Assembly: GCF_965363235.1 (NCBI RefSeq)
Contig: NC_134849.1
Span: 13,542,863 to 13,606,862 of the forward strand
Reading direction: 5' to 3'
DNA from: Mytilus galloprovincialis
Taxonomy: Eukaryota > Mollusca > Bivalvia > Mytilida > Mytilidae
DNA: 64,000 nucleotides
In this document: in pieces, positions 4,476 through 61,685 of the stretch
Position numbering within the stretch: position 1 is the stretch's first letter
Layout: every line of letters starts with the position of its first letter
Made by a program: the position numbers and the translations under genes
The notes under the pieces: generated by a model
Database searches by the model: none
Told to the model about the DNA's origin: nothing
Seen by the model: the letters and a program-made list of their open reading frames with translations, nothing else

Positions 4476-5505
4476 GTGCGATTTTCATCTATTAGTATAC
4501 ACATTTCTAATTTGTCTACTGTTTAAAGATGTACGTATTATTGCGGTGATCAAAAACCTGCATGGCCTTTGTTTGTCTTGTGTGTTTTTCAAGCTCATGT
4601 TCATTTATATGTTTCGGAGATTAGTATGGTGTCCATTTCGCTGAACTAGTACATACATAATTAGTTGATTACATACCAGCTTGGGCTTTTTGGTGGTCAC
4701 GGGTTGTATTTTGCATGCTATTTAGTAAGGTTGTTGTCTCTTTGACATATTCGCCTTTTCATTTTTATATACTCCCTTTTACAAATCTATATATATTTTA
4801 TTTTTCAGCTTTTTACAAAAGTAAAAATGTTCAGAAATTAATTTGGATATGATAACGTAAGTACATCATACTTTAAAAAGCGCTGAAAGTTTATCATGGC
4901 TTTTGATCACTCTCTTACATAAAGATAGCTTCTGACGGACCTTGCATCGCACATGATAATATTATACAATATCAAAGAAAGTCGAAACTCACCCTTTTGA
5001 ATCATTGTTACATTTTATTTAACATTACAAAACAAATTAACCAAACACGAGGCACACAAAAAAACCATACAAACCATGAAACCTCAATTGTATATAAAAA
5101 CCGTAATGAATGCCTGTCGTTATTGATACATCAGTTATACTTATTATAGCATACGAAAAAAAAATTCTTCAGAAGTTGGAGCAACCCAACATAGGTTTTA
5201 CATGAGTTTTGTGTGATCTTAATTCATCAGAAGATGTGCTATCCAATTCGTATACCAATGTTTCAAAACTAAAACGGATTGAATATCTGTTCGTCACATT
5301 ACGAATTATTGAAACTCGTATGTATGTTATCATCCTTTACAACATACGGGTATCTGAGTCATCCTTGTTTCCCGAGCCAAGCAGATGAAGGAAAGGATAC
5401 CAGTCCATATAAACAAGGTCATTTTTACCCTTGTTAAGTGAGTGTTACCATGGATACAAGTAACAAAGAGTACAATAATATAACCTTACTGTTTTCACGT
5501 GCATG
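4476..5505. other. Intergenic, no supported gene
   Basis: It includes TTGTTGTCTCTTTGACATATTC near 4735, a piece of a common mussel repeat end. Otherwise it is AT-rich without recognisable features. Confidence 0.45.
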
Positions 5506-5507
5506 TT

Positions 5508-6575
5508 AAAGTTGGTATTACTTTGCTTCATAAAAAAGAATGGCCAACGTAGATACAAGTATCTTGTCTTAGGGAGGGATAAATCATACTTTGTAAAGAA
5601 TCACTCTGATTCAAACAAAAAATTCTCTGAAACCGATATTATCAAGATGCTTGATTTCTTGATTAACAACGGAGGACGTGTTTTTCAACAGACTGTCGGC
5701 ATCCCAATGGGAACAAACTGTGCCCCTCTACTTGCCGACTTGTTTCTTTATTATTATGAGGCTGACTTCATGCAGGAACTTCTTAGGAAGAAAGATAAGA
5801 AGTTAGCAATATCCTTTAACTCTACTTTCTGCTATATAGATGACGTTCTTTCACTAAACAATTCAAAATTTGTTGACTATGTGGAACGCATCTATCCCAT
5901 CGAATTGGAGATAAAGGATACTACAGATACAGTTAAGTCGGCTTCATATCTTGACTTACATCTAGAAATTGATAATGAGGGTCGGTTGAAAACAAAACTT
6001 TACGACAAAAGAGATGATTTCAGTTTTCCAATTGTGAACTTTCCATTTCTAAGTAGCAACATTCCAGCAGCACCTGCATACGGGGTATATATCTCCTAAT
6101 TGATACGATATTCCCGTGCTTGCATTCCCTATCATGATTTTCTTGATAGAGGGTTACTGCTCACAAGGAAGCTATTAAACCAAGAGTTCCAATGGTGAAG
6201 TTGAAATCATCCCTTCGTAAATTTTACGGACGCCATCACGAGTTGGTTGACAGTTATGGAATAACCGTTTTACAAATCCCCTTCCCTTTCATGAATGTGA
6301 CCTACCGAATTAGACTATTTACCGGATTTGTAATCACATAAGCAACACGACGGGTGCCACATGTGGAGCAGGATCTGCTTACCCTTCCGGAGCACCTGGG
6401 ATCACCCCTAGTTTTTGATGGGGTTCGTGTTGTTTATTCTTTAGTTTTCTATGTTGTGTCATGTACTATTGTTTTTCTGTTTGTCTTTTTCATTTTTAGC
6501 CATGGCGTTGTCAGTTTGTTTAAGATTTATGAGTTTGACTGTCCCTTTGGTATCTTTCGTCCCTCTTTTAAAAGG
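5508..6575 (+). mobile_element. Penelope-like RT element, 5'-truncated copy
   Basis: The 5503-6099 ORF carries RT core motifs: GIPMGTNCAPLLADLFL (motif B), YIDDVLSLNN (motif C) and SYLDLHLEI. It is a close relative of the minus-strand element at 26.6-28.4 kb and shares that element's 3' tail (MPHVEQDLLTLPEHL-like reading at 6354). The front of the RT is absent and the copy is broken by a few changes, so it is inactive. Assignment to the Penelope-like clade is by motif style and is less certain than the RT call itself. Confidence 0.8.
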
Positions 6576-7595: not shown

Positions 7596-7880
7596 ATTCC
7601 CTTGTTTGCATGGATATATATGAGCAAAAAGTACGAAAATAATATCCATGTTAAGACTCTAGTTGTCCATAAGCAGTCACGTGACAAATCTGTTCGTTCA
7701 TTTCAAGTGTTTGACAGTTCATTCATTAATGTAAAGGATTTTCGGAATACAGAACATAAATTTGTACACTATTCTTTACCCAATATTTCCTATCCTTTTA
7801 ATTGTACTGAAACATTTGGACTGGTACCCCAGAAGAACCTTATAAAAATCAAAGAACCAGTCGAGGACATTGTTTGCATG
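7596..7880 (+). CDS. Sulfotransferase-like gene, exon A (stem region)
   Basis: An open frame ends exactly at a strong donor (TTTGCATG followed by GTAAGTG at 7881). Its last residues, KEPVEDIVCM, join in phase 0 to exon B at 9492, whose start KRPRLLENYKNPCW fits the CHST15-type lead-in to the sulfotransferase domain. The exon likely encodes the lumenal stem before the catalytic domain. Potential N-glycosylation sites NIS and NCT are visible. The 5' boundary (AG at 7595) is a guess. An upstream exon with the expected type II membrane anchor was not found. Exon assignment is inferred from phase and position, since this stretch itself has no signature motif. Confidence 0.55.
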
Positions 7881-8235
7881 GTAAGTGATTTTTTTAATCA
7901 TGACTCGAATTTGATTTAGAAGTGGGCAATATTTGTAATTATATTTGTGTAACACACAAGCCGTAAACGTATCAATCAGTTTATTATTTACATTGGTAAT
8001 TGAATGTGTACAACAAATATCAGTTCTGAATGTTAGTAAATGTTCAACTTAACTCATCTGGTTCAGTAACAACTAATCGTCCTTTCAAATCTGCCGTACT
8101 CTTTGGTACTGACGACAATCTCTCACTTCCGGTCTGACTAATCACCGATCTAGTCTGAAAACGTAACAAACACTATAACGTACCATATAACATTTGTTTT
8201 CCTCAAATCTGAATTTTCCAAACAATCTCGTTATT

Positions 8236-9491: not shown

Positions 9492-9702
9492 AAAAGACCA
9501 AGACTTCTGGAGAATTATAAGAATCCGTGTTGGATAGAAGATGGACACCTTCGTTGTTTCCCATACTTCCACATTTTTGGTGTATGTAAATCAGGAACGA
9601 AAGATTTATTCCGCCGGTTGATGATACATCACCAGATTATGCCAAATAAAGGATTGATGAAGAAAGAAACTTGGTTCTGGTCATGGAAACGGAATGGTGA
9701 AC
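9492..9702 (+). CDS. Sulfotransferase-like exon B, 5'-PSB motif
   Basis: Seventy codons read in phase with exon A: KRPRLLENYKNPCW, then RCFPYFHIFGVCKSGTKDLF, then KETWFWSWKRNGE. In the CHST15 / GalNAc4S-6ST family this is the 5'-phosphosulfate-binding loop (CKSGTKD here, PKCGTTDLF-like in vertebrates) that grips the PAPS donor, followed by the conserved aromatic stretch before the RKRFG-like turn. The enzyme type transfers sulfate from PAPS to glycosaminoglycan chains in the Golgi. The exon ends GAAC with donor GTAAGT at 9703. That donor is the first of a tandem series, because the exon's last 22 bases and the donor form one unit of a 30-bp minisatellite. Family assignment is from remembered motifs, but the match is strong. 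Confidence 0.85.
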
Positions 9703-10008
9703 GTAAGTTGTCATGGAATCGGTATGGTGAACGTAAGTTGTCATGGAAACGGTATGGTGAACGTAAGTTGTCATGGAAACGGTATGGTGAACGTAAGTTG
9801 TCATGGAAACAGTATGGTGAACGTAAGCTGTCATGGAAACGATATGGAAACGTAAGTTGTCATGGGAACGGTACTGGGAACGTAAGTTGTCATAGAATCG
9901 GATGGTGAACATAAGTTGTCAAGGAAACGATATGGTGAACGTAGGTTGTCATGGAAACGGTATGCTGAACGTACGCTGTCATGGAAACGGTATGGTAAAC
10001 GTAAGTTG
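9681..10008 (+). repeat. 30-bp minisatellite spanning a splice donor
   Basis: There are eleven units of the form TCATGGAAACGGTATGGTGA ACGTAAGTTG. Unit 1 is the coding end of exon B plus its donor. Units 1-5 are exactly 30 bases, so they stay in frame. Later units vary by a few bases. Seven units keep GTAAGT, three have weaker donors (GTAAGC, GTAGGT, GTACGC) and one has lost the GT. ORFs on both strands through the array are translations of the repeat. Confidence 0.95.
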
Positions 10009-10074
10009 TCATAACAAAGAAATTTCATAAAAGGCCGTTGTTTAAATACATTGTAGTTGAATTTTGATTGATAG

Positions 10075-10157
10075 TTGTCTCATCTGATATACCATTTAAA
10101 TCCAAATATCAAGCTTATTCTCGTTATACGAGATCCAGCTGAAAGGGAATTCTATGA
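10075..10157 (+). CDS. Sulfotransferase-like exon D, 3'-PB motif
   Basis: After the acceptor TTTTGATTGATAG at 10074 the frame reads LSHLIYHLNPNIKLILVIRDPAEREFY. LILVIRDPAERE corresponds to the 3'-phosphate-binding loop of PAPS sulfotransferases, and the preceding segment aligns with the family's FIHAFQPDAK-type helix. The next residues in the family (YSDYL-like) are found 4.3 kb downstream in exon E. The natural junction would be after TATGA at 10157, but the next bases are GAAAGA, not GTAAGA. Either the donor is mutated or the exon ends elsewhere. Exon B does not join exon D in frame, and the family expects about 75 residues between them. That intervening exon is not visible in the 370 bases available. 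Confidence 0.75.
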
Positions 10158-14436: not shown

Positions 14437-14454
14437 AACAGTTAGACTATACAG

Positions 14455-14610
14455 TCATTACCTACATAAGAATTTGGGGATCAATATCCACCCCAGTGCC
14501 AAGGAATTCCATGAAGGTGTTCAACATGCTGTTTCTACTTTTGCTAGTTGTACCAATAGCAAAAGTCTGCGAGCATGTTTATATGATACAGTTCTATGTA
14601 AAGATTACGG
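14455..14610 (+). CDS. Sulfotransferase-like exon E
   Basis: The frame reads HYLHKNLGINIHPSAKEFHE, then SKSLRACLYDTVLCKDYG. It matches the CHST15 segment RLYSDYLYF ... SADDFHEKV ... SLRACVYNNTL in order and spacing. Either ACAG at 14441 or ACAG at 14454 could be the acceptor; 14454 fits the end of exon D best (REFY-[D]-HYL). The 3' boundary is GATTACGG with donor GTACGT at 14611. This leaves two bases of a codon, whereas exon F starts a whole codon, so the canonical join shifts frame by one base. A MITE ends only 5-18 bases upstream and supplies the local 3' splice-site context. Confidence 0.75.
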
Positions 14611-15388: not shown

Positions 15389-15536
15389 GCACCAATATCC
15401 TCAGGGTTTAACAGTACTTTTCTGCGTGATTGGTTGAAGGTCTTTGACAACGATCAGATTATGGTTATACGTACAGAAGACTACCGTCATAATATAGCGG
15501 GAACTCTGGTGAAGGTGTTCCAGTTCTTAAATCTGG
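15389..15536 (+). CDS. Sulfotransferase-like exon F
   Basis: After TTCCGTTTCAG the frame reads APISSGFNSTFLRDWLKVFD, then NDQIMVIRTEDYRHN, then VKVFQFLNL. This is the family's conserved LLDWLxVFDKxQxLILRLEDY ... MKKVFxFLxLG block, which closes the catalytic domain. The distance from TVL in exon E to DWL here equals that in CHST15, so no residues seem missing between E and F despite the phase problem. The donor is at 15537 (CTGG then GTACGT), leaving one base. It joins exon G in frame as a GAC codon. Confidence 0.9.
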
Positions 15537-15588
15537 GTACGTACAATAATCTCTTCCTTGAATTAAATACTCTATTTCATACAATTCT

Positions 15589-16390: not shown

Positions 16391-16443
16391 TTTTTTTTGT
16401 TATAGAAAATTTATAAATTAATTGAATGCATTTTTGTTTACAG

Positions 16444-16748
16444 ACGAAGTAGGACCGTATGTTCTGGAGAAAATGGCGTGTAGAGAGTTGGAGTATAAAA
16501 CAAAATACAGGTCGCCAATAATGAACAAAACGAGAAGCCTTTTAGAAACATTTTATTACGATAGCCAGCGCGAGATGGACAGTCTACTAGAAGAATATGG
16601 AATAGACCTTTCACTTCAACCACAAAATGAAATGGCCAGTAAAATAAACTGTTCAAGATTTATTGCCAAAAAGAATAAAGTTAAACGCTATTTTGTAAGC
16701 CAAAAAAATAATACGAAATATTTCAAGAATAAATATATAACTCGTTAA
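16444..16748 (+). CDS. Sulfotransferase-like exon G, C-terminus
   Basis: The acceptor TTTTTGTTTACAG (16443) opens with two bases that complete the codon begun in exon F. The frame then reads DEVGPYVLEKMACRELEYKT and ETFYYDSQREMDSLLEEYGI, ending at TAA 16746-16748. The order (short acidic linker, basic region, then a helix ending FYxxxxxxLxxLL) fits the C-terminus of CHST15-type sulfotransferases. A Lys/Asn-rich extension of about 40 residues follows the usual family end. Phase continuity F to G is exact, which supports these two exons as real parts of one gene. Confidence 0.85.
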
Positions 16749-22947: not shown

Positions 22948-24177
22948 TTATATATACTTAAGTCCTGCAACAAGTAACGTGATCAAAGTGGATGAAACAA
23001 ATATTATCAGGCAAACCCAGAACAAAACTTTATCAAGAGCTGATATTGCTTCTTTCCATGTAACACAGACTTCTTCTCCTTCTAAACATAGACACTCATG
23101 ATTAGCAAATGTAGTTAAACACCCCCTATCCAAACACATGGAATTTTCAGGTTCGTTTTGTTTTCGGCACTTTTTTGTGAGTGTTTTTAATATGTAATAT
23201 ACTGATTCATCATCGGACCGATGTGCACATCCGGATTCTATTGCTGAAATGATAACAATCACAGTTCCGATAAATATTTGTAGCATGATATAGATAGAAA
23301 CAATCGGAATAGATTCTGAACTCTGTGGTAACGCATCACTGATAATCGTTAGAAACACAGCAAATGCTAACCACACTGTTATAACATATCCTATGCGTTC
23401 CCCTGTGTCAACCGGTATTTTGAATGTAAAAATATCCAGTATTGAAAGTAACAAGATCGGTATGATATAATTCATTATAGCGTACAATGATTTTCGTTGA
23501 ATCATGATTGTAAACCGAACTTTCGTCTCGTGAGATTCCGCGAGATTCACGGCAGATGACGATACTATTTTCCATTCCCCATGTTTCTGTAGATCATCGG
23601 CCAATACTATTCCCTTGCTTCCTTGTATTATATGAACATCTGCACTAGACAAACTCCACGCCTCAAAATCTAAATGACAAGTCTGCCTATCAAAAGGGAA
23701 GTATGTTGAGTCAATATCGCATTTAGACTTAAAAACCTGGAAGGGCCTCCAATTTACCAATCCATTTGAATCAATATACACCGATATGAATTTCGAACCG
23801 AGCTCATCCAGTTTTGAAAATCCATTTTGTAAAGATATATCTGGTTTCCATACGTCACCTTGAGGATAATATATATATCTTAGCCCTCCAAAACATGAGG
23901 GTGTCCATGACAACAATTCATCTGTCCATTCAATCTCAAGCCAACCGGTAGTGGTCAGTTTCTGTTGGATCTCGTCCACTCCTGATATTCCGTAAATTGT
24001 AAAAATGACGTGAACTGATAACGGAACCGACTGATTTCTGCTCGGTCTTATGAGCTTGTTATAATTGTTAGTAGTGAACAAATGTGTATATAAATTTTGA
24101 ACATCCATGTTGGTCTGTGAAATGACTGATCCATATAGAAGTGTCAATGAAGTTATTAAACACCAGGTAAAATACAT
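22948..24177 (-). CDS. nAChR-like Cys-loop channel subunit, gene 1
   Basis: An intronless 409-residue pentameric ligand-gated channel subunit of the nicotinic acetylcholine receptor family. It has a signal peptide (1-21), then the extracellular domain with GWLEIEWTDELLSWTP (loop D region), WKPD at 110-113 (loop A), and a Cys-loop C153-C167 with 13 residues between (CDIDSTYFPFDRQTC). M1 is at about 231-254, M2 261-283 starting from GER, M3 288-314 and M4 381-405. The loop C region has no adjacent cysteine pair, so it is a non-alpha type and its ligand is uncertain. The M3-M4 loop is short and cysteine-rich (C337, C348, C353, C362, C364, C371). It is shorter than the roughly 500 residues of vertebrate subunits, mainly in this loop. 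Closest neighbour is gene 3 at 40.2 kb. It is likely a plasma-membrane cation channel subunit. The absence of introns suggests descent from a retrocopy. Confidence 0.93.
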   Translation of the reverse strand: MYFTWCLITSLTLLYGSVISQTNMDVQNLYTHLFTTNNYNKLIRPSRNQSVPLSVHVIFTIYGISGVDEIQQKLTTTGWLEIEWTDELLSWTPSCFGGLRYIYYPQGDVWKPDISLQNGFSKLDELGSKFISVYIDSNGLVNWRPFQVFKSKCDIDSTYFPFDRQTCHLDFEAWSLSSADVHIIQGSKGIVLADDLQKHGEWKIVSSSAVNLAESHETKVRFTIMIQRKSLYAIMNYIIPILLLSILDIFTFKIPVDTGERIGYVITVWLAFAVFLTIISDALPQSSESIPIVSIYIMLQIFIGTVIVIISAIESGCAHRSDDESVYYILKTLTKKCRKQNEPENSMCLDRGCLTTFANHECLCLEGEEVCVTWKEAISALDKVLFWVCLIIFVSSTLITLLVAGLKYI

Positions 24178-25007
24178 TTTTCTTAAACTATTGAATTATC
24201 AGTTTAAGTCAAAATTGAAGTACACGTCCAGTCGTTATTGAGTTCGAAGTAGTTTAGATTCCGTGCTTTCGGATTATTATGTCCCTGAAAATGACATCAG
24301 CTCTCTATGGGTGATAAAAATCCGATTTTAACAAACCAAATTGATTTTTCTCTAAATCAGTGTTTTTAAGTATCCTGTTATAAATTATGATACTTGTAAA
24401 ATATCAAAACGCTGAGAAAATTAACTTCACGAAGTGAATGCATTGTCTTAAATCTGTTACATTACATTACGTCTTTGTTTGAACATCTTTTCTTATAAAT
24501 GTCCTGCATTGGTTTCATTGTCTTGAACTGCCAATATATAAGTATTGTTCATCCGCATAGCAATATTTACGTTAACATATTTGATATGAATAATTGTTCT
24601 CGAAATAATTGACAATTCTTTCTTCAATTGTGTTATAAAATTTCAATCAAGTTAATGACATTAAATAATATCATAGCATTTCTTCTAAAAACATGTGAAA
24701 CAACGACTACTTTACTTTAATAATAGTTTTCTTGTTGTAATGTACCTGTCTTTGAATTACTGTGTAGTGACATATATTTATAGGTTTCATGACGTAAAAG
24801 AATTAGATATCGCTAAAGCTCATGTTATTCAATTTCAGTATAATTATAAAGAAGCATTCGGCGAGTGTAGTGTTACCGTTTGATTAAATGACACTGTTAG
24901 GGATGAAACCCATTAACACGAAATGAAAGTGAGCTAGCATTATGTCAGTATATTACTTGCTAAAGTACAATCACGTATCGCATGAACATGTTATCGTCCT
25001 GAATATG
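24178..25007. other. Upstream region of receptor gene 1
   Basis: AT-rich. No clear TATA box near the start; a TATATAA-like run at about 24533 is remote. Small ORFs are not convincing. Confidence 0.4.
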
Positions 25008-26599: not shown

Positions 26600-28390
26600 A
26601 CTTCTTTAAAAGGGGGACGAAAGATACCAAAGGGACAGTCAAACTCATAAATCTAAAACAAACTGACAACGCCATGGCTAAAAATAAAAAAGACAAACAG
26701 AAAAACAATAGTACACACGACACAACATAGAAAACTAAAGAATAAACAACACGAACCCCACCAAAAACTAGGGGTGATCTCAGGTGCTCCGGAAGGGTAA
26801 GCAGATCCTGCTCCACATGTGGCACCCGTCGTGTTGCTTAAGTGATTACAAATCCGATAAAAAGTCTAATTCGGTAGGTCATATTCATGAAAGGGAAGGG
26901 GATTGTAGTTACGACGTAAGGAACATATCCGATATCATTTGTGAAACGGTTATTCCAGAACGGTCAACCAACTCGTGATGGCGTCCGTAAAATTTACGAA
27001 GGGATGATTTCAACTTCACCATTTGGAACTCTTGGTTTAATAGCTTCCTTGTGAGCAGCAAACCTCTATCAAGAAAATCATGATAGGAAATGCAAGCACG
27101 GGAATATCGTATCAATTGGGAGATATATACCCCGTATGCAGGTGCTGCTGGAATGTTGCTACTTAGAAATGGAAAGTTCACAATTGGAAAGCTGAAATCA
27201 TCTCTTTTGTCGTAAAGTTTTGTTTTCAACCGACCCTCATTGTCAATTTCTAGATGTAAGTCAAGATATGAAGCCGACTTAACTGTATCTGTAGTATCCT
27301 TTATCTCTAGTTCGATTGGATAGATGCGTTCCACATAGTCACCAAATTTTGAATTGTTTAGTGAAAGAACATCATCTATATAGCGGAAAGTAGAGTTAAA
27401 GGATATTGCTAACTTCTTATCTTTCTTCCTAAGAAGTTCCTGCATGAAGTCAGCCTCATAATAATAAAGAAACAAGTCGGCGAGTAGAGGGGCACAGTTT
27501 GTTCCCATTGGAATGCCGACAGTCTGTTGAAAAACACGTCCTCCGAACGTAACAAATATGTTGTCAATCAAGAAATCAAGCATCTTGATAATATCAGTTT
27601 CAGAGAATTTTTTGTTTGAATCAGAGTGATTCTTTACAAAGTAGGATTTATCCCTCCCTAAGACAAGATACTTGTATCTACGTTGGCCATTCTTTTTTAT
27701 GAAGCAAAGTAATATCAACTCTTTCAATTTGTCTTTTAGTTTGGAATGTGGAATACTTGTGTACAGGGTAGAAAAGTCAAATGTTTTAATACTGTTACAA
27801 GATGAAAGAGAGTTAGATTGTATGTACTCTAAAAGATCTTTTGAATTTTTAAGTATCCACATCTGATTCACGCCACCTCTGGAATAGGCAGTTTCACAAT
27901 AACTTTGAAGCCCGTCTTTGATTGCTGATAAAATAGATGTTAATAATTTAGAAAGAGGTTTCGTGGAGCACTTGGAAGACCCAGCAATATACCGTTGTTT
28001 GTAAGGACACTTATGTAGTTTAGGTATCCAATACAGTGATGGAAGATCCAGTTCTTCATCTTTGGTTGATATTCCAAAGGAACATAGAACAGACCTATGA
28101 TTATCCAGGATTTCCTCTTTGGTAAGTGTCGTGAGGGTATATGTTGAGTTACCAAGTGAATTGTCAATACCTAATTCGTTTATCAAGCAGTTGATGTAGT
28201 GACTTTTACACACAAAAACGATGTTATTTGGGGTTTTATCTGCAGGGACAACAACATATTTGTCATGGAGGTCGGATAGGTGTTTTGCAACATTTGGGTC
28301 TTTAAAGATTGACGTAGCATGGGCATTGATGGACCCATTACAATCTTTAAGTAATTTTAAAGGATTGTAAAGCGTTGTCCGTGTGCACAT
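26600..28390 (-). mobile_element. Penelope-like RT element, longest copy
   Basis: An RT ORF (26909-28390) is followed on the minus strand by the family's 3' tail (reading MPHVEQDLLTLPEHL at 26825 and a T-rich end at about 26600). The tail is shared with 6354-6575 and with decayed tails elsewhere. No GIY-YIG endonuclease segment was seen after the RT. The 5' part upstream of 28390 is not recognisable, so the copy is probably 5'-truncated. Confidence 0.8.
26909..28390 (-). CDS. Reverse transcriptase of Penelope-like element
   Basis: A 493-codon open frame. Motifs in order: PSLYWIPKLHK (about 118-128), KTFDFSTLYTSIPH with the first catalytic Asp (motif A), GIPMGTNCAPLLADLFL (motif B), FRYIDDVLSLNN with the catalytic Asp pair (motif C), SYLDLHLEI (motif D) and a thumb-like SRACISYHDFLDRGLLL. 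These are RNA-dependent DNA polymerase hallmarks, and the PKLHK and DFSTLYT style is that of Penelope-like RTs. The frame is open throughout, in contrast to the copies at 5.5 and 17.3 kb, so this insertion is younger. Whether it was recently active cannot be told. An alternative label is an unclassified non-LTR retroelement RT. Confidence 0.85.
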   Translation of the reverse strand: MCTRTTLYNPLKLLKDCNGSINAHATSIFKDPNVAKHLSDLHDKYVVVPADKTPNNIVFVCKSHYINCLINELGIDNSLGNSTYTLTTLTKEEILDNHRSVLCSFGISTKDEELDLPSLYWIPKLHKCPYKQRYIAGSSKCSTKPLSKLLTSILSAIKDGLQSYCETAYSRGGVNQMWILKNSKDLLEYIQSNSLSSCNSIKTFDFSTLYTSIPHSKLKDKLKELILLCFIKKNGQRRYKYLVLGRDKSYFVKNHSDSNKKFSETDIIKMLDFLIDNIFVTFGGRVFQQTVGIPMGTNCAPLLADLFLYYYEADFMQELLRKKDKKLAISFNSTFRYIDDVLSLNNSKFGDYVERIYPIELEIKDTTDTVKSASYLDLHLEIDNEGRLKTKLYDKRDDFSFPIVNFPFLSSNIPAAPAYGVYISQLIRYSRACISYHDFLDRGLLLTRKLLNQEFQMVKLKSSLRKFYGRHHELVDRSGITVSQMISDMFLTS

Positions 28391-28946
28391 TTGTATAATG
28401 AAGCGTTTTATTCAAAATGTACGATCAACGCTTTGATAACTATTTACACCACAATAAAATTACAAAAAGAACCTATCAATTATTAATTATAACAAATGAA
28501 TACATCAATTTTCTACTAGACGTAAAGCTAACAACAATCAATCAATTGTAGCATAAATCAGATACATTTGCATAACGTATTCCGGTTTGCTGAACTGATA
28601 TCTTATTTATTTGTTGTTCTTAGTTTATTTCTGGTCACTTAATTTGTAGTTATCAATCGTTTCGTGGTTCATAACGCGCAGTCTTTAATTTTTTTACGGA
28701 AGGTTGTGTAGACTTTGCCTTTTCGTCTTTAGTTTATGTCTTTCATTTATCTCTTTTCGGTTTTTTTTCCCTCTTTGTATATCCCACCTCTTTTTTGTAA
28801 CTTTAATTCTATCTCCTTTTGTTCTTTTGTTCTTTTGCAGATTTAGTAAATTATTTTATGATTTATATTTGTTACGAACTTTTTATTTCTTATCTTATGG
28901 GGTAAGATTAATGGGGTATATTAAAAATGTTAAAGAAGATGGGGTA
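28391..28946. other. Spacer, nothing recognised
   Basis: AT-rich. A cysteine/phenylalanine-rich ORF at 28704-28949 looks like low-complexity translation. Confidence 0.4.
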
Positions 28947-29192: not shown

Positions 29193-29750
29193 TTACTCAT
29201 CCAAACACCTGTTCCCTAAGACACCATCTTGAAGTGCCCTGAGTCTCCAGATAATATTTTTGCACTGAGCTTCTATTGGTTTTTTGTCATAAATCTTTCT
29301 TTCTATTTCAACTCCTTGTAAAAAAGCAGTTTTAATGTCCATTGTTCGTGTTTTCCAACTTCTTTGAGCTAGAATAGCTAGAACTAATCTTAGGAAATAT
29401 GTTCCACACGTGGGTGAATCTTTCGGTATATCATCTCCTTTGAATTCTTCAAATCCTCTGGCAACTAATCTTGCCTTATGTATTGTTCCTTCTGAGGTGT
29501 CCTTCAAACTACATATCCATCTCGTAGAAATACACTTTTGACCGGTATCTGTGCATTCTTCATAAACACTGTTGTTTTTCCATGAATTTTGTTCTTTTAG
29601 TTTAGCTTCCCTGAAAGATACATCTTCAAAAATCATAACACTCTCACCATCAGATCTAGGAAGTTCTACTTCTGGAGCAACATTTTCTAATTCCTCCAAT
29701 TTACTCAAATCAACTGAAATTTCTGCTCCTATAAGTGTGTTAGGTTCCAA
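29193..29750 (-). pseudogene. copia-type RT region (fossil, partial)
   Basis: Minus-strand reading with WICSLKDTSEGTIHKARLVA and RTMDIKTAFLQG, hallmarks of the front of copia RT. Only part of the domain is present. Confidence 0.85.
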
Positions 29751-29771
29751 TTATTGCATGTTAAACCAGTT

Positions 29772-31058
29772 CTAATTACTACCCGTCACCTTTCCCGCAC
29801 GTCCAGTGACCTTTGCAACACTCTGTTTACCACTTTCAGCATTTCTATATTTCACTGTTTGTCCTATTTTCATGTCTGCAAGTTTAGGTCGTTCTGTTTC
29901 TGCTATTGCATTTTCGACTTGTTCTTCATTATTTGCATTATCGACTTGTTCTTCATTATTTGCATTTTCGACTTGTTCTTCATTATTTTCATTTTCTACT
30001 TGTTCTTCAATATTTGCATTTTCGGCTTGTCCTTCATTATTATCAATTTCAATTGTTTCAACATTACTATCACTATCGTTTTCATTCTCCATGTCACTGT
30101 CACAATAACTTACAAATCTGTTTTCCTGAATAGGCATTGCCTTAGAAATAATCCTCTTTGCTTCTTTTTCTTTTTCAGAATTATTAGTATTTTTGTTTTG
30201 TTCTGTTTCAGGTATTGTTGATACCTTAGTTAAGCTGCACAGATGCACTCTTACAAGCATCCCACCATGTCTTACAAAAACAACAGCTCCATCCTGTCCA
30301 ATCACAATGCCAAGCCCTTTCCACTCTTTGTTATCTGGTCTTTTATAGGAAACTTTATCACCTGTCTGGTAGGATATACCACTTGGACGAGTTTGTTTTT
30401 TTAATGCTCTGCGGATTCTTTCAGAACATTCACTTCTAGTGAAAGCTGTTCTAGCTGAGTGCAAGGTCTGAATATGTTTTCCATCAATTTCACTTATAGT
30501 GGTACCCTCAAGTGCAGGCAGCTTATCTGTTAAAACACTAGGCAGGTTTGGATTGCGTCCATAAACTAACTGGTATGGACTATACCCATGTGCATTATCT
30601 AACGCATTCTTTGCCACGAAAGCCCAACTTAAAGCAATGTCCCAGTCACAATTATTATCCGCTTTCAATTTGAGTAATGTGTCCGTAAGAGTTTGATTAT
30701 GCCGTTCTAGAAGCCCATTACTCCAAGGACTATAAGCTGCAGTAATTTTCACTTCAATGTTAAAGTTCTCTGCCATATCTCGTACTTCATCATTATTGAA
30801 TTCACCGCCATTATCACTGTAAAGACGTCTTGGTGAACCATTTATTGAAATCCAAGATTCCAAAAATTTCTTTACAAATTCTGATCCTTTTTTTATTTTC
30901 ATTATACTCCTTGCACTAAAGCTTGTGAATTCGTCAATTATATGAAGATACCATACATTGTGTCCTAGTTCATGCAGATCAACTGCTACTGTTTCGTTAA
31001 ACTCTGTTGCCAATGGCAGTCCAACCACCGGTCTCGAACTTGGTCTTTTGTTGGTCAT
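29772..31058 (-). pseudogene. copia-type integrase region (fossil)
   Basis: Integrase core motifs are visible: VAVDLHELG, RRLYSDNGGEFN and WSNGLLERHNQTL, the three acidic positions of the DDE catalytic core. An Asn/Glu-rich stretch (EEQVENANN repeats) follows near the end. Confidence 0.85.
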
Positions 31059-31259
31059 ACAAATTTCACAATTTTCACAAACTGATCGTAAAAGATCTTA
31101 TGTATCAGCATTGTTCATTCCAGCCTTATTAAGAAGTTTAGATAAACGGTTAAATGTTGCATGTCCAAATTGTTTGTGTACTTTAACCAATGTCATACGT
31201 TTCTCCGCTGTATTCATTTCATCTGTGATATTAAGTACGTTCTCCTCTACGTTAACAGG

Positions 31260-31830
31260 TTAATTTTGTATTTCAGGTTTTGTTTTCACAATATTTACAC
31301 AATAATGTCCACTAGATGTGAACTCCAATTCCACCGGTATGTTAAACATGAATGCCCTATGATTCTTTAAGTCCAGTACAGTACCAGCCTTCTTCAATGA
31401 TGCCTCACTGAGTAACAAAGGGATATCAGCTTTTACAATTTCAGTTTCAATTTTGCAATTGATACTTCCTATCTGAGCAGGTATAGTGGCACGCATGAAA
31501 GAGTTAACTACTTATCCATCACTAAACTTAAACGATCTATTACTTGTCACTGTAGTAATGTCCCCAGTTCTCTCTAAAAGCTGTTTAAACCAATTCTCCC
31601 CAAACACAGTACGAATACATGCAGTGTCTATGATTGCTGAACATGCTGATTCAAGTACAGATATTTCACTGACAGGTGGCTGCTATTTTGTGAAAAGCAT
31701 TATATTGCAATTCTCTACAATTTCAATTTCAGACTCAACTAAATTAACAGAATTTCCTTTGTCAGGACAGTCCTTGGCCCAATGAAAAACACTCTGGCAG
31801 ATAGCACATTTTGTTCTTTTTCCAAACTTG
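31260..31830 (-). pseudogene. Protease and zinc-knuckle region (fossil)
   Basis: A CCHC knuckle (CAICQSVFHWAKDC, about 31760-31810) is followed by a region with a DTA-type aspartic protease motif. Interrupted, not functional. Confidence 0.65.
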
Positions 31831-31839
31831 TTTAACGGA

Positions 31840-32415
31840 TTAACTTGATTTACCCCCTTTATTTTGTTGTGTATAATATACCGGTTCTTGCTTTATTGTT
31901 ATACTTGGAACATTACCAGTAATTTCTGAAGGTCCAGACATTTGCTCACCAAATATTCGTTGCAATGCTGACTTCATAGAGGTATATTTAACATCACTAG
32001 ATGCTGTTAAGGCTAGTTGTTTGTCTCTGGAAGATAGGCCAGCATTATCTAATAGTTTGAAAGCAAGGACAGCTTCTGCGAGTGTCATATCATATTTTTT
32101 AGATTTGCTATATCTTTTGTCGAATTCAAAAATGTAGTCTGACATTGACAAATTTTCAGTTTCTACAAACGTATCAAAATTTTTGTAAGCTTCGTATGCT
32201 TTGTCCTTATCATCTCGTAAGAACGCCTTGTCCAATTGTGTTATCAGTTTTGCCATGCCGTCTGCCTTGGCCAGGTCGGCAGCCGGGACATCAATAGCCA
32301 CGTCCCATGCATTTCCCGTACGTGTAAGTGAAACAGCAAGTGCTTGTTTGTCAACTTTCAAATCAGTAACTAATTGCCAGACGGAAATTTCATTCTTCCA
32401 TGTTTCGTAAGTCAT
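31840..32415 (-). pseudogene. copia-type gag-like region (fossil)
   Basis: 191-codon reading beginning MTYETWKNEISVWQLVTDLK. It is of the UBN2/gag-polypeptide style typical of copia elements in invertebrates. Part of the broken element. Confidence 0.7.
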
Positions 32416-32484
32416 TGACCTCGGGTCAAACGTAGGTGGATTCTTAAAACTTGTTGCCTTTATGATCGCTATGCTCTGCTACCA

Positions 32485-32650: not shown

Positions 32651-33627
32651 CAGTAACCAAACAACAAAACAAACAAGCTATTAAGGTATATTCATGGTAT
32701 ACCGCCATCACAGTACACAATCAGTCTATTTATTTGCCCAAATCTGCAAATGTGGAGACAGATTTGCAATTTAATAGTTAACTGTTTATTTATATAAAGA
32801 AAACTTGGTGATGAATTGTATTATTCAAAATATTTAAACAAATATAATTTTTTGTTGTTTTTAAAATCATTTTTTTAAATAAGCCATTTAAGGGGAGATA
32901 ACTCTTTAAGTAAAAAAAATATACTGGACTTATAGGGAAATTTTTTATTTTTACTTGTAGCAAGAAAACAAGTTCGGTGTCACCATTTTTTCTTTTTCTT
33001 TTCTTTAAACAGATAATAAAATATATCTCCTCACAATTTATTTCAAAATTCTTTCTCATAGAATTTTTTTATGCACACAAATGTCTATTTTCATGCACAA
33101 TCTATTAATCAAATTTTGGCAATTTTCAACGACTGATAGCTTGAAAAATAGCACGATGACCCATACTAATTCTGTCTAAAAAAAAGTCTATATAATTCTA
33201 ACAGGAAAAGGAAAGATTATATTACAAAGTTTTTTACAAACAACTAAAATAGTATTACGTTTTTGTAGATAATCGTCAATTTTTGGCACATGGCTTAGTG
33301 CAAAATTATAGAAATAAGGTCATGGTATAAATGTGCTGTATTGAAAACAACCGTAAAATTCCCCTAATCCAATTTCATCATAGTTGTGATTTGTTTAACA
33401 GTATAAACGGAGATCAATGACAGCTAACGTACTAGTTAGCTTAGAGTTATGCAAGATGTATAACGATTGAAAATTAGAACATGTTCGGTTTAAATCTATA
33501 ATCTATAATCCCCATTACCCTTTGAAAAACAAAAACATAATAATTAGAAACTTCAAAAAGTTTGTGACTTAGTACTTACGTTAAGAATATACTACATTTC
33601 AAACTTTGACAGTCAGCTCTATGAAAC
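32651..33627. other. Spacer upstream of receptor gene 2
   Basis: It contains the inverted partner (about 32870-33085) of the 3140-3330 repeat. The rest is AT-rich with no clear promoter element. Confidence 0.45.
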
Positions 33628-34803
33628 ATGAAGGCAACACAGCTGTGGGTAATTTTCTCTCTGTTTGGGATAGCTAAATTGCAGAGTAATACAGATGTTC
33701 AGAGCCTGCTAACACAGCTGTTTACAACTAATAACTATAACACGTTGATAAGGCCAAGTACCAACCAATCGGCACCGAAGGAGATTGATATCAACTTCAA
33801 TCTATATGGAATAACAGATGTTGATGAAATTGAACAAAAATTAACAACGACAGGATGGCTGGAAATAACATGGCAAGACGATCTGTTGACATGGACACCA
33901 GCCTCTTATAATGAAGTAGAAAAACTGTATTTGCCGCAGGGTAATATTTGGAAACCTGACGTGTCATTGCAAAATGGATTTAGCGAGTTGGAAGAACTAG
34001 GCTCTAAGTTTATTCAAGTTTATGTCCATAATTCGGGCTTTATTATGTGGAGACCTTTTCAGGTATTTGAGACTAAATGCGATATGAATTCCAAATACTT
34101 CCCTTTTGATGAACAAAAATGTCATTTGATTTTTGTGTCATGGAGTCATGCATCTGACGATATAACGTTAACACAGTCCAGTAACGGTATAGAGCTTTCT
34201 GAAGAATTGAATGGTCATGGTGAGTGGGAAATTACTTCCTCGTCTGCCACAAGTGATTTAGATGGCTTTATATCAAGAGTAAAATTCACAATTGTAATTA
34301 AACGAAAACCTTTGTATATGATAATGAATATCATTCTACCAATTATTTTGTTGGCGTTGTTAGACATCTTTACTTTTAAGATTCCTGCGGATACTGGTGA
34401 ACGTTTAGGCTACACAATAACTGTATGGTTATCATTTGCTGTATTTCTGACCATCGTCTCAGATTCTCTGCCCAAAACCTCGGACTCAGTTCCAATCGTA
34501 TCAATTTATATTATTATACAACTGCTCATGGGAACTTTGATTGTTTTGATATCGACAGTAGAAGCTGGCTTTGTTGCAAATCCGGAAAGTGTACCAGTGT
34601 ATAATATTCTGCGATTTATTGCATTGCGGTTGCGTCGGAACAATGTAAAATCGTCTGAGGATATGGTGATGAAAATAAATCCGGAAATATTAGAAGTCAC
34701 GTGGAAAGAAGCCATCACTGCAGTAGACACGTGTTTGTTCTTGATTTGTATGGGGATCTTTGTTATTACTACTATTATTTGTTTTTTGATTGTTGCAATA
34801 TAA
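33628..34803 (+). CDS. nAChR-like Cys-loop channel subunit, gene 2
   Basis: An intronless 391-residue nicotinic-receptor-family subunit. It has a signal peptide (1-20), GWLEITWQDDLLTWTP, WKPD at 109-112 and a Cys-loop C151-C165 (CDMNSKYFPFDEQKC, with DEQK in place of the DRQT of genes 1, 3 and 4). M1 is at about 228-251 and M2 258-282, from GERLGYTITVWLSFAVFLTI with Glu at -1' and Leu at 9'. M3 is at 286-312 and M4 366-390. There is no vicinal cysteine pair in loop C and the M3-M4 loop is short. M4 is unusually cysteine- and isoleucine-rich, and the protein stops right after it. The closest relative here is gene 4 (52.0 kb). The ATG chosen gives a proper signal peptide. Likely a cation-channel subunit with uncertain ligand. 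Confidence 0.93.
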   Translation: MKATQLWVIFSLFGIAKLQSNTDVQSLLTQLFTTNNYNTLIRPSTNQSAPKEIDINFNLYGITDVDEIEQKLTTTGWLEITWQDDLLTWTPASYNEVEKLYLPQGNIWKPDVSLQNGFSELEELGSKFIQVYVHNSGFIMWRPFQVFETKCDMNSKYFPFDEQKCHLIFVSWSHASDDITLTQSSNGIELSEELNGHGEWEITSSSATSDLDGFISRVKFTIVIKRKPLYMIMNIILPIILLALLDIFTFKIPADTGERLGYTITVWLSFAVFLTIVSDSLPKTSDSVPIVSIYIIIQLLMGTLIVLISTVEAGFVANPESVPVYNILRFIALRLRRNNVKSSEDMVMKINPEILEVTWKEAITAVDTCLFLICMGIFVITTIICFLIVAI

Positions 34804-37185: not shown

Positions 37186-37506
37186 GACATGATAAAATGA
37201 ATAACGATTCAAAACTGGAAAACCAAAGCACTAATTCATGTACAAAAAAATAAACGATAAAGATAAATGAAATACAGCAACAAACGATAATATCTGAATT
37301 GAATGCTCCTGACAATGGGTCTGTGCATCATATGCAAAACATATGTACTTTGTGCATAAGGAATAGATGTTTCATTGTATCTACCTTTTTATCTTAAATA
37401 TATCTAAATTACAATTAATTATAAAACAATAATTTTTAAAAGTTAGAATAACATCCATCGGATTAGAATGCGGAATGATCCTGTATCTAACATTTCGGTT
37501 TACACT

Positions 37507-37993
37507 GTTTGAAAGTTCTTTCGTGATCCTTGGATCTAGTCGGATTAATGCTTACCTCCTTACTCTCTGTTTGAAAGATCGTTCGTGATCCTCTGATCTT
37601 AACGGATTAATGCTTACCTCCTTACTCTCTGTTTCAAAGTTCTTTCGTGATCCTCTGGTCTTGTCGGAATAATGCTTACCTCCTTACTCTCTGTTTGAAA
37701 TATCTTTCGTGATCCTCGGGTCTTGTCGGATCAATGCTTACCTTCTTACTTTCTGTTTGAAAGTTCTTTCGTGATCCTCGGGTCTTGTCGGATTAATGCT
37801 TACCTCCTTACTCTCTGTTTGAAAGATCTTTCGTGATCCTCTGGTCTTGTCGAATTAATGCTTACCTCCTTACTTTCTGTTTGAAAGATCTTTCGTGATC
37901 CTCTGGTCTTATCGTATTAATGCTTACCTCCCTACTCTCTGTTTGAAAGATCGTTCGTGATCCTCTGGTCTTGTCGGATTAATGCTTACCTCC
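37507..37993 (+). repeat. 61-bp minisatellite, 8 units
   Basis: The unit runs GTTTGAAAGATCTTTCGTGA TCCTCTGGTCTTGTCGGATT AATGCTTACCTCCTTACTCTCT. Units differ at a few positions (AGTTC / AGATC, GGTCT / GATCT). Each unit carries a GATCNTTCGTGATC-like partial palindrome. Confidence 0.92.
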
Positions 37994-40217
37994 GATACTT
38001 TGATGGCTGGAGTCGTATATATAGTTACCAGAACAGTATTTAAAGCGGAGCGTTTCCAGATCCGTGTAGGCATTGCTGAGAGACATGCTATGTATTTTAT
38101 AGTTTGAATGAACATGATCGTGCTATCAACTCAATAGTCAGTATTTCCCTTTTGACATGATTTACAACATATCTTTCGGATTTCAAATGTTTGGCTTTGA
38201 GTGTTCCTGATGAAGATGAATCAAGAAAAGCGCTTCGGACGCAAGAAATTATTAAACGTGATGTTGTCATTTTTTTCTCCAAAATCGCCTTTTTATAAAT
38301 TTAGAAATTATGAGGAAAGTAAGGTTTCAACACACTATGGATATATCAGACTATTATGTTGCGTTCTTTTTTGTCACATAGGTCTTTGTTTTTAAATAAT
38401 CAGCTTAGCGCAATTTTGATGAGGCTTAATACAGAAAACAGCATTTCACGCGTGCAATGTGTTATTGGCTGTTTTGTTTTTATACTCGTTAGGGATGTTA
38501 ACGGAATGAAACTAGACAACGGTAAACAATTACCTGTTTTTCCTCTTGAACAGTAAAAATAAGGAAATTCTAGACAAAATAGATATCATCTGAGTTCAAT
38601 TATAGAAATCGATTTCTTCTAGGTACAAACGCGGTTGCAAATATTCCGACTGATCAATATATTCATACACAAATGATTATCTTTGTTAGTACAGAACATG
38701 TGTAAAAAAACGTTAAGGAGAGAAATAAATTACACATAACTGCAGATTGTTACCCAGGGAAATCATCGTCAATGTCTGTTTGAGGGGTAACAGTCCGTGA
38801 AGAGTGTAATAATGTATTAACCAATCAAAATCTGACATTTTGAAGTATGATAAAGTATTTTTCACTCGAAATCAATCTTTATTCATCAATTCGTATCAAT
38901 CATAAAAGTGGAAATATACTTTTCTCTTTTCTTTTAAGTCATCGATAATAGCGATTAATTTCTTTTTGGATGTAACGCATCTTTTGAGTGGATGACAGTG
39001 TTTTGTCTATGAGTTCATAGACATAATTTTGTCATGAGACCGTGACGTCATCAACGTTTTCCAATGTGTTATGCAAGCTTAAAAGGAACGGAATGACTGT
39101 TTTTCTGTTTATTCAAATAACATCAAAAATGTGGACACACTTTCAAAAGACCCGCTACAAGGGTAATTCAGTGTGCACTACATATTTTATGTTATTTCGA
39201 TTAGACAGAAATAAATATTCTTAAAGAAATTTTGGTTGAAATAAACAACCGTTAGATTTTTGGCACAGGGTTTTGAAAGTTGGGCCCATATTTATTTTAT
39301 TCAAATGATTTTGAAATTCTATAAAGGTTCTAGTGCTTCACTAAATAGCAAGTTAGTTATGAAATATACAAAAGTAACCAATATGTATTTCAACACAATG
39401 AGAAACATACATTAATTTGATATTATCTATTTCCAAATTATCGATTTCCTAATAAATGGGTTTATCGAAAGACAATGACAATCAAAACCAGGAGTAAACA
39501 AAGACTCACAAAACCAAAGGACATTTACGAAAATGTTATATTAAAGATACAAAGGTAATTAGGTTCTTAAAAGATATTGATTGTTAAGTTTTACATTAAG
39601 TTAAAATGTTTAGTAAACATACATAGCAAAATTAGTTGATGTCAAACATAAATGATTCACAGAAAAATAAACAGCGAATTATAACATAAAAAATGTGACA
39701 TAAGAGTAAAGTGTTCCTTGTTGATCATATGCTTCAATATATTTACGTCAAAAGAAAAATAAACAATTTATCAGTTCATGTCAGTAATTTATAACACGTT
39801 TGCATAAATGTTTCATAAAAAAATTAATAAAGCAATCAAATGTTTCATAACCGAAAAATAAATAACTCAAAACAAAAATCGTCATGAGGATAAATAATAC
39901 ATACCACTGGCAATTCAAAACTATACATACTATGTTGAAACATCGACGAGAAAACATGTAGATGTTAAACAAATGCCTTTCGTAAAATAGTTCAGTTAGA
40001 AGGATATGTTTTGATTGCTTATCATTTGATCGTTTGTATATTTTACAGTATATCAGCTTACTATTTGTCGATATTATGATCACAGTTGCCATAGTGAAAA
40101 TGAAGTAAATCAGAAATTTATAATCAAATCATTAATAATAAAGCTCCGGTCTCATTGGTGAACTTCGACTTGTTGGAACTGTTATTTGGATTTCTTAAAT
40201 GATGTTTTAATTTTAAA
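37994..40217. other. Spacer with one dispersed repeat, no gene
   Basis: At about 38185-38285 a repeat (TTTGGCTTTGAGTGTTCCTG, AGAAAAGCGCTTCGGACGCA) also occurs at 48297-48402. Small ORFs (38201, 38356, 39042, 39781) look like chance AT-rich readings. Confidence 0.5.
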
Positions 40218-41405
40218 ATGTTTTCTATATCGTGGTTAATTTTGTTGTTGACTTTTTTGTTCGGATCGGTAATTTCACAGACCAATGTCGATGTTCAAAC
40301 GTTATACACTCATCTGTTTACTACTAACAATTATAACAAACTGGTTAGACCAAGCAGAAATCAATCGTATCCGAACTACTTGTATGTCTCTTTTAATCTT
40401 TACGGAATATCAGGCATAGACGAGATTCAACAGAAGTTGACAACTACTGGATATCTTGAGATTGAATGGGTAGATGAATTATTATCGTGGACACCCTCAC
40501 AATATGGCGGACTAAGTTATATCTTATATCCTCAAGGCGACGTATGGAAACCCGACATATCTCTACAAAATGGCTTTTCAAAGCTATAAGAGCTCGGATC
40601 AAAATTCATATCGGTGAATATTGATTCATCTGGACATGTGATTTGGAGGCCCTTCCATGTCTTTGAGTCTAAATGCGATATAGATTCAACATACTTCCCG
40701 TTTGATAGACAGACGTGTCATTTATATTTTGTAGCATGGAGTTTGTCAGAGAGAGACGTCAGACTTAAACGAGGCAGCGGAATAGAGCTGGTCGATGATC
40801 TACAGAGTCATGGCGAATGGAATATTGTATCTACTTCTTCTCTGAATCTGAGGAATCAATATGAAACTAAAGTTCGGTTTACAATAGTGATTCAGCGAAA
40901 ACCATTGTACGCCATAATGAATTATATTTTACCGATTATATTACTTTCAATTCTTGGTGTCTTTACATTCACGATTCCTGTTGATACTAGGGAACGCATA
41001 GGGTATGTGATAACAGTCTGGCTAGCATTTGCCGTTTTTCTTACGATTATCAATGATTCGTTACCAAAGAGTTCAGAAACTATCCCAATTGTTTCCATAT
41101 ATATTATGATACAAATATCCATAGGGACTTTGATTGTTATTATTTCAGCAATAGAATCAAGATTCGTGCATTTGTCTGACCATGAACCGGTAAATACTAT
41201 ATTACTTACACTTGCACAAAAGTGTCGAAAACGCCGTGTTCAACCTGAAACAGAAATTAAGAAATGTATTGAAAGAGACGAAACCTGTGTGACGTGGAAG
41301 GAAGCGATAACAGCTCTAGATAAATTTCTTTTCTGGATTTGCCTTTCATTTTTTGTTTTCTCCACGATGATTTCCCTATCAATTGCAGGTTCCAAGTATA
41401 TATAG
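40218..41405 (+). pseudogene. nAChR-like subunit gene 3, one in-frame stop
   Basis: The 395-codon frame starts MFSISWLILLLTFLFGSVIS (signal peptide) and keeps the whole family plan: GYLEIEWVDELLSWTP, WKPD, the Cys-loop CDIDSTYFPFDRQTC, M1-M4 and the VTWKEAITALDK segment before M4. A TAA replaces one codon at 40587-40589, where gene 1 has Asp (SKLDELGSKF against SKL-stop-ELGSKF). Nothing else breaks the frame. The residue before GER at the start of M2 is Arg (DTRER), where genes 1 and 2 have Gly (DTGER). Closest relative is gene 1. A very recent pseudogene, a segregating null allele, read-through, or a sequence error would all fit. Confidence 0.9.
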
Positions 41406-51500: not shown

Positions 51501-52037
51501 CTATCAATCATTTTTGTTTTCAATATATTTTAACACTATAAGGTATGAGGAAAATCTAGATTTAGAATATTTTGTTTTGTCATCTTGGGGATCCGAATAT
51601 TTTTTAGGACACAATGTATCACTACGACCTTCAAATAATAGGAAAACACATATTTTAATGGTTTACTATAAAATGCCCTGACATGATAAAGTCAATGTGG
51701 AAATGGTTCAACCAAACGCGCTAATAAATGATTAAACGAAAAACAAATAAAAAGACAGAAACCAACAAAGTTTGTGATTTAAAATATATTGCAAATAACT
51801 ATCAAATTTTAAATCAAATGAAATCTTAAACGGGTGTAATATCTCCTCCGTTTAATTAAATCTTTAAAATAAATAAATAATAGAAAGCTACTCAAGTAAA
51901 GAACTATTAAAAACAAATATCACAAAAGATTCACTTGAATTAGATACATTACTATAACTTTAAAGTAACTAGTATATAAAACAAAATTATATCACTGTCC
52001 CTAGCCCATTCTTGACAACACCGTCAAAAGTATAAAG
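51501..52037. other. Upstream region of receptor gene 4
   Basis: AT-rich. The only candidate regulatory element is the TATA-like site reported separately at 51973. Confidence 0.4.
51973..51980 (+). promoter_or_regulatory. Possible TATA box of receptor gene 4
   Basis: TATATAAA lies 58-65 bases before the ATG of gene 4. AT-rich context makes chance occurrence possible. Confidence 0.35.
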
Positions 52038-58328: not shown

Positions 58329-58389
58329 GACGATTATGGAACGCCGTAGCTGCCTTATGTGTACTTGTTTTTAGATACGCTTATACTTT

Positions 58390-58640
58390 TCAATATATGC
58401 ACATAGTTTTTCTATATATGCACATACTTTTTCTCTATATGCACATAGTTTACTTTATATGCACATAGTTTACTTTATATGCACATAGTTTTTCTATATA
58501 TGCACATAGTTTTTCTATATATGCACATAGTTTTACTATATATGCACATACTTTTTCTCTATACGCACATACTTGTTCTCTATATGCACATAGTTTACTT
58601 TATATGCACATAGTTTTTCTCTATATGCACATCTGTTACT
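58390..58640 (+). repeat. 21-bp minisatellite, left arm
   Basis: About 12 units of TATATGCACATAGTTTTTC and variants. Confidence 0.92.
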
Positions 58641-61429: not shown

Positions 61430-61685
61430 AGATGTGCATATAGAGAAAAAGTATGTGCATATAAAGTAAACTATGTGCATATAGAGAACAAGTATGTGCG
61501 TATAGAGAAAAAGTATGTGCATATATAGTTAAACTATGTGCATATATAGAAAAACTATGTGCATATATAGAAAAACTATGTGCATATAAAGTAAACTATG
61601 TGCATATAAAGTAAACTATGTGCATATAGAGAAAAAGTATGTGCATATATAGAAAAACTATGTGCATATATTGAAAAGTATAAGC
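61430..61685 (-). repeat. 21-bp minisatellite, right arm (inverted)
   Basis: About 12 units of CTATGTGCATATATAGAAAA, the reverse complement of the left-arm array. Confidence 0.92.

Follow-up and report, generated by a model that had tools for sequence, protein, structure and literature searches.

Features of the window and state of its sulfotransferase gene

The window, i.e. the whole 64-kb stretch of mussel DNA analysed (C12:13542863-13606862), carries one copy of a clustered sulfotransferase gene, and a minisatellite lies at the 3' end of exon B of this copy. The coordinates of the gene features, together with those of the other genes and repeats in the window, are collected in Table 1.

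Table 1 Coordinates of the features (window positions unless another locus is named)
Feature	Position	Strand	Basis or remark
Fragment near-identical to the Penelope-like frame at 26909-28411	5479..6099	+	comparison by eye
Possible exon A, upstream	7602..7895	+	open frame, position only; no family match
Exon B, 206 nt, sulfotransferase; 3' end inside array unit 1	9497..9702	+	limits by homology with exon B of L011 (206 nt)
30-bp minisatellite	9680..10007	+	begins within exon B, extends into the intron; 7/11 units with GTAAGT
Unit-1 donor, probably authentic (GAAC|GTAAGT, phase 1)	9703..9708	+	paralogue B-B2 joins
Further GTAAGT donors, at 9733, 9763, 9793, 9852, 9882 and 10001	9733..10006	+	unit split
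Deletion junction	10074..10082	+	about 3.5 kb of L010 (1466 to about 4925), including exon B2 and the exon C acceptor, absent
Exon C remnant (..NPNIKLILVIRDPAER)	10082..10145	+	donor GT replaced by GG at 10146
Exon D with 1-nt deletion (frameshift)	14446..14610, ends approximate	+	paralogue comparison
Exon E, open	15389..15538	+	single-exon search, Pfam Sulfotransfer_1 at E 5e-4, under Pfam's own cut-off
Exon F, open part	16443..16634	+	paralogue comparison
Single-frame gene, presumably nicotinic-acetylcholine-receptor-like	22948..24195	-	
Frame taken to be a Penelope-like reverse transcriptase	26909..28411	-	
Region presumed to resemble a Copia-type element	29193..32478	-	
Single-frame gene, presumably nicotinic-acetylcholine-receptor-like	33625..34803	+	
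62-bp tandem repeat	37505..37993		7.9 copies, 90% match
Single-frame gene, presumably nicotinic-acetylcholine-receptor-like	40203..41405	+	split by an in-frame stop at 40587-40589
Single-frame gene, presumably nicotinic-acetylcholine-receptor-like	52005..53213	+	
21-bp minisatellite, two arrays in opposite orientations	58387..58632 and 61432..61677		11.9 copies each; tandem repeats of 178 bp and 156 bp lie between, giving a large inverted arrangement
Duplication at the exon end of L023	L035 about 1120-1318 (same place as L023; C12:12233508 region)		two copies

The open frame of exon B encodes KNPCW...GVCKSGTKDLF...ETWFWSWKRNGE. The array at its end consists of 11 head-to-tail units with the consensus GTCATGGAAACGGTATGGTGAACGTAAGTT (29-30 bp in the window), and the lengths of the units by unit split are 30, 30, 30, 30, 30, 29, 30, 29, 30, 30 and 30 nt, respectively. 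The same array was found by Tandem Repeats Finder at 9680-10012, with a period of 30, 11.2 copies, 87% matches and a score of 517. A 30-bp unit repeated 11 times with seven consensus donors, as described in the original prediction, was thereby confirmed, and only the position given for it (9681..10008) was off by one base. The first 23 bases continue the exon B frame and are followed by GTAAGTT; the four units lacking GTAAGT read GTAAGC, ATAAGT, GTAGGT and GTACGC. GTAAGT occurs 17 times on the + strand of the 64 kb, seven of them within the 328 bases of the array, and the frequency in the rest of the window is 0.157 per kb. Units 1-5 are exactly 10 codons long and open in the exon frame, just as had been predicted for the window copy; the 29-nt unit 6 shifts the frame, and a stop is met in unit 8. 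The period of 30 lies within the range of head-to-tail minisatellite units (10-100 bp), and the variable unit number characteristic of minisatellites was seen across the eight paralogues (6-13 full units).

The window copy is a damaged gene. The exon order in the paralogues is B, B2 (114 nt), C, D, E and F, and relative to them the window copy has a gap that opens about 67 bp past the array and closes in mid-exon C; no match to exon B2 was found in it by comparison with seven paralogues, and the 62 bases preceding exon D in L010 have no alignment in it. A complete sulfotransferase gene was thus not found in the window, since B2, the 5' part of C and the C donor are lost and D is frameshifted. 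Among five single window exons searched against Pfam, exon E alone gave a match (sub-threshold, to Sulfotransfer_1), and exon B searched against PDB gave chance-level matches, including heparan sulfate 3-O-sulfotransferase 1 at E 0.22-0.46. Because the usual partner exon B2 is gone, the donor series of the window copy would have no productive use in the manner of the family.

Of the seven copies in this comparison, the window copy has diverged furthest, with dS of 0.18-0.21 and dN/dS of 0.22-0.38 to the six others (L013 was left out of this set; L012 and L014 entered it without exon F, and the window copy without B2 and some of C), and these dN/dS values point to window exons that were long under constraint. 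Among the six other copies dN/dS was 0.25-0.61 where computable, with the highest value for L010-L011 (0.61), so that constraint on them is not strong everywhere. Judged from the sequences compared, the age of the array is at least that of the split of the window copy from the other copies.

The eight-copy cluster and the donor of exon B

A DNA search of the genome (1.38 Gb, 331 contigs) returned eight copies of exon B, all on the + strand of C12 at 12.50-13.55 Mb, and the seven non-window copies were taken as 10-kb loci (L009-L015). The array is present in all eight copies found, with 8 (L009), 12 (L010), 13 (L011), 12 (L012), 6 (L013), 8 (L014), 6 (L015) and 11 (window) full units by wrap-around alignment, i.e. 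76 in total with partial end units left out, and GTAAGT is exact in 53 of the 76. A pattern search of the genome for the unit at ≤3 mismatches gave 32 forward matches, all at the eight cluster sites, and no match outside the cluster, no reverse match and no control match genome-wide; since this search scores the best candidates only, decayed copies elsewhere could escape it. With the exon-intron boundary placed by the B-B2 join, the array spans it in 8/8 copies, and arrays found by Tandem Repeats Finder cover the exon B donor in 8/8 copies vs 0/29 other located donors (B2 7, C 7, D 7 and E 8). Some pairs of copies are closely alike in their aligned parts (L009/L014 98.5%, L013/L015 98.2% and L010/L012 95.8% identical), as plain uncollapsed haplotypes would be, but L009 and L014, as well as L010 and L012, occur in different order along C12 and such an artefact of assembly seems unlikely. 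The separate genes in the cluster may be fewer than eight.

Exon B ends in GAAC|GTAAGT in phase 1 (GAAT|GTAAGT in L013 and L015). Exon B2, which reads HSDGPISTLKNFTDLFDVLPQRLTYSYDLDMYYSHFVT in L010, is preceded by TTTTTAG (TTTTAAG in L010), ends in ACAG|GTAA and is in phase 1 at both ends, and exon C, which encodes GHGDPMDIWY...RDPAER in the paralogues, is preceded by TTTATTAAG (TTTATAAAG in L013 and L015). When exon B was joined to B2 via the unit-1 donor, the join was open in six of the seven copies with B2, the sole exception being L013, which has a deletion within its exon B. B-B2-C reads through in L011, and the joined L011 exons matched Pfam Sulfotransfer_1 at E 1.1e-11 (45.1 bits vs a cut-off of 22) and, as protein, heparan sulfate 3-O-sulfotransferase 1 at E 6.4e-7. 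Exons C, D and E presumably match blocks of human CHST15, and the enzyme may be CHST15-like. At the B2 acceptor (about 2848-2857 in L010), two AG lie six bases apart in L009-L015 (TTTTTAG|ATTCAG|ATGG), both in phase 1, and by these paired acceptors, including the TTTTAAG variant in L010, two residues could be gained or lost.

For the relatives, a protein search with exon B returned 19 rows, which are the eight cluster copies in nine rows (L013 being split) and ten others outside the cluster (L023-L025 and L027-L033). Donors at the RYG codons were found in L025 (TATG|GTAAGT), L027 (TATG|GTAATG) and L024 (TATG|GTTAGT), all in phase 1, and the GTAAGT donor in the cluster and in L023 is located six bases 3' of this place. 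The protein sequence SWKRYG (or WSWxRYG) is common to L023, L024, L025 and L027, which are devoid of the array. Outside the cluster the best-scoring relative is L023, with 55% identity and at a distance of 0.26 Mb from L009. It carries a two-copy duplication of its own over the exon end and the donor (109 vs 95 bp, 79% identical, with a stop between), and in the other nine of the ten relatives no duplication was detected at the exon end or within 1 kb after the exon. Two duplications that differ in unit length thus appear to have occurred at this junction; those of L023 and of the cluster may be independent events and, given L023, the junction may be prone to duplication.

The unit-1 donor, GAAC|GTAAGT in phase 1, is likely the authentic one, because the B-B2 join is open in 6/7 copies, B-B2-C is open in L011 and three array-less relatives have a phase-1 donor 6 nt upstream. 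The joins of the paralogues and the array-less relatives likewise support the prediction that the unit comprises the coding end of exon B and its GTAAGT donor, which is in phase 1. Splicing could instead use TATG|GTGAAC, which lies 6 nt upstream of GTAAGT in the same phase, at the site of the donors in L024, L025 and L027; GTAAGT is preferred to it on consensus alone. In one simple duplex model, U1 pairing was -5.7 kcal/mol for most copies of the donor, -6.4 for some downstream ones and -7.3 for one, with no preference for donor 1 over its copies, and the values for the nearby TATG|GTGAAC (-5.4 kcal/mol) and ACG|GTATGG (-6.0 kcal/mol) were not separated from that of donor 1.

Reading frames, selection and polarity of the downstream units

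The use of successive donors was predicted to add 10 residues each time and so to create length-variable isoforms, and this expectation failed at the joins of the paralogues. Where the donor-1 join is open (six copies), seven of the 53 downstream donor positions are open into B2 and 46 lead to a stop (in this test the row for unit 2 of L015 sits 3 nt off the GT owing to an insertion); five of 53 are open when GTAAGT is required. One open position is found in L010, two in L011, one in L012 and three in L015 (only one of the latter being GTAAGT), and none in L009 and L014, in both of which a stop is already met in unit 2. Joined to the next exon, donor 2 is open in L010, L011 and L012, donor 3 in L011 and donor 4 in L015. 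Units of 29, 31 and 33 nt in the paralogue arrays shift the phase or lengthen the step. The long open run of donors 1-5, which agrees with the isoform reading, is peculiar to the window copy, where the partner exon B2 and the exon C acceptor are gone. Judged from these joins, length-variable isoforms are not a conserved property of the family, because 46/53 downstream joins lead to a stop and units of 29, 31 and 33 nt break the phase; a role of the array in adding 10 residues per donor is regarded as very improbable.

A count over 16 columns of non-first units gave 73 distinct changes; the counts are rough, since the columns were set by hand from diagnostic changes and inserted bases and partial end units were left out. 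The GTAAGT hexamer was not significantly spared (12/73 changes vs 14.6 expected from 6/30 positions, P 0.28), and no sparing was seen for the GT dinucleotide (4 changes, P 0.46). The ten-base block AACGTAAGTT had 16/73 changes vs 24.3 expected (P 0.023, one of three tests, with the block picked post hoc). Unit 1 was not significantly less changed than expected (2 changes vs 4.6, P 0.17). Selection keeping the decoy donors was not accepted on the hexamer and GT values and on the nominal, post hoc value of the block; from the latter, weak selection to keep the donors could be present. Divergence from the consensus grows with distance from the exon in 8/8 copies (rho 0.32-0.64, with one P below 0.05, the copies being related and so not independent). 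That the units nearest the exon are closest to the consensus fits a growth of the array at the exon end.

Origin of the array and comparison with known systems

The explanation that we favour, with a probability of about 0.7, is that the minisatellite arose from the end of exon B, and that the unit-1 donor is used while the downstream donors are drifting decoys; the array is most likely a by-product of DNA copying errors and not a device for protein variants. It would have started in the ancestor of the eight-copy cluster, when the final 23 coding bases of exon B were duplicated in tandem together with the 7 bases at the start of the intron, and its length would later have been changed by whole units among the paralogues, with its upkeep by copying and unequal exchange. 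The spliceosome would take the unit-1 donor to make the enzyme, and the downstream units would be decoys within the intron, most of them out of frame or carrying stops, drifting with little or no selection and mostly inert or mildly harmful. Exon-proximal units would stay near the consensus because new units are copied at the exon end and unit 1 is coding. This explanation is preferred because the array is found in all eight copies, nowhere outside the cluster (≤3 mismatches) and over none of the 29 other donors; it is also backed by the open donor-1 join (6/7), the few open downstream joins (7/53), the hexamer value (P 0.28), the polarity (8/8) and the constraint on the window exons (dN/dS 0.22-0.38). 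Counted against it are the neutral U1 pairing, the nominal sparing of AACGTAAGTT, the possible use of TATG|GTGAAC, the dN/dS of up to 0.61 among the other copies and the retention of the array in every copy found, even at dS of about 0.2. In addition, competition among identical donors in series often favours the downstream one, so that silent decoys are not guaranteed.

A serious rival, to which a small probability is given, is that the downstream donors are used to a sizeable extent and lead to early stops, the number of units setting the amount of productive mRNA. Poisoning of splicing in this way is possible, as 46/53 downstream positions in the six open copies lead to a stop, GTAAGT is exact in 53/76 full units, the unit number varies among the paralogues and AACGTAAGTT is nominally spared (P 0.023); the hexamer itself, however, is not significantly spared (P 0.28), and a mere by-product predicts the identical anatomy. 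That array length would act as a heritable splicing rheostat, with 5-12 extra donors diverting a set share into truncated, decaying mRNA, is considered quite unlikely; if true, gain or loss of units would retune the enzyme dose across the cluster. The array adds as many as 12 U1-like sites where the intron begins, and instead of providing splice sites it might serve as a U1-binding platform that raises transcription or shields the intron behind it from premature cleavage, but 9/10 relatives outside the cluster do without any duplication at the exon end and this role is judged very improbable. An unrelated dispersed satellite that landed by chance at the exon end is hardly conceivable, since the unit occurs at these eight exons only (≤3 mismatches), its first 23 bases belong to the codons of the exon itself, with SWKRYG/WSWxRYG also in L023, L024, L025 and L027, and no support for such an origin was found.

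The family offers a natural competition series, with 6-13 near-identical 5' splice sites spaced at about 30 nt. In at least some copies the coding sequence demands the most upstream donor for the enzyme, and a single animal carries several array lengths at once. The choice of the spliceosome among equal donors has been studied mostly in built constructs. An exon-intron junction can, moreover, itself seed a minisatellite.

In the open-access literature (titles and starts of abstracts), no published example of a native donor with so many copies was found, and nothing specific on this sulfotransferase family in molluscs was met. The closest published kind is that of the boundary tandem repeats of recent human paralogues (De Grassi & Ciccarelli 2009, PMC2812944), together with PRDM7 (Fumasoni et al. 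2007, PMC2082429). In the human segmental-duplication paralogues, minisatellites of 30 bp on average are described at exon-intron boundaries and reported, with transcript support, to create novel introns via cryptic sites or to stay in exons (PMC2812944). The mussel array is like them, according to that description, in its units of about 30 bp at a boundary and in a unit number that varies between recent paralogues, and unlike them in that its unit multiplies the apparent native donor 6-13 times. In exon 3 of PRDM7, an 89-nt unit within the exon is reported to make a new GC-AG intron and to be duplicated 8 times in chimpanzee (PMC2082429); there, as here, a tandem duplication in a recent paralogue alters the splice sites on offer, whereas in the mussel it is the donor of an existing intron that is duplicated. 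Intron gain by tandem genomic duplication, as outlined for the potato RdRp (PMC4974935) and in a review (PMC3443670), likewise involves duplicated sequence with splice-site potential, but no new intron is evident in the mussel cluster, where the units add donors to the same intron.
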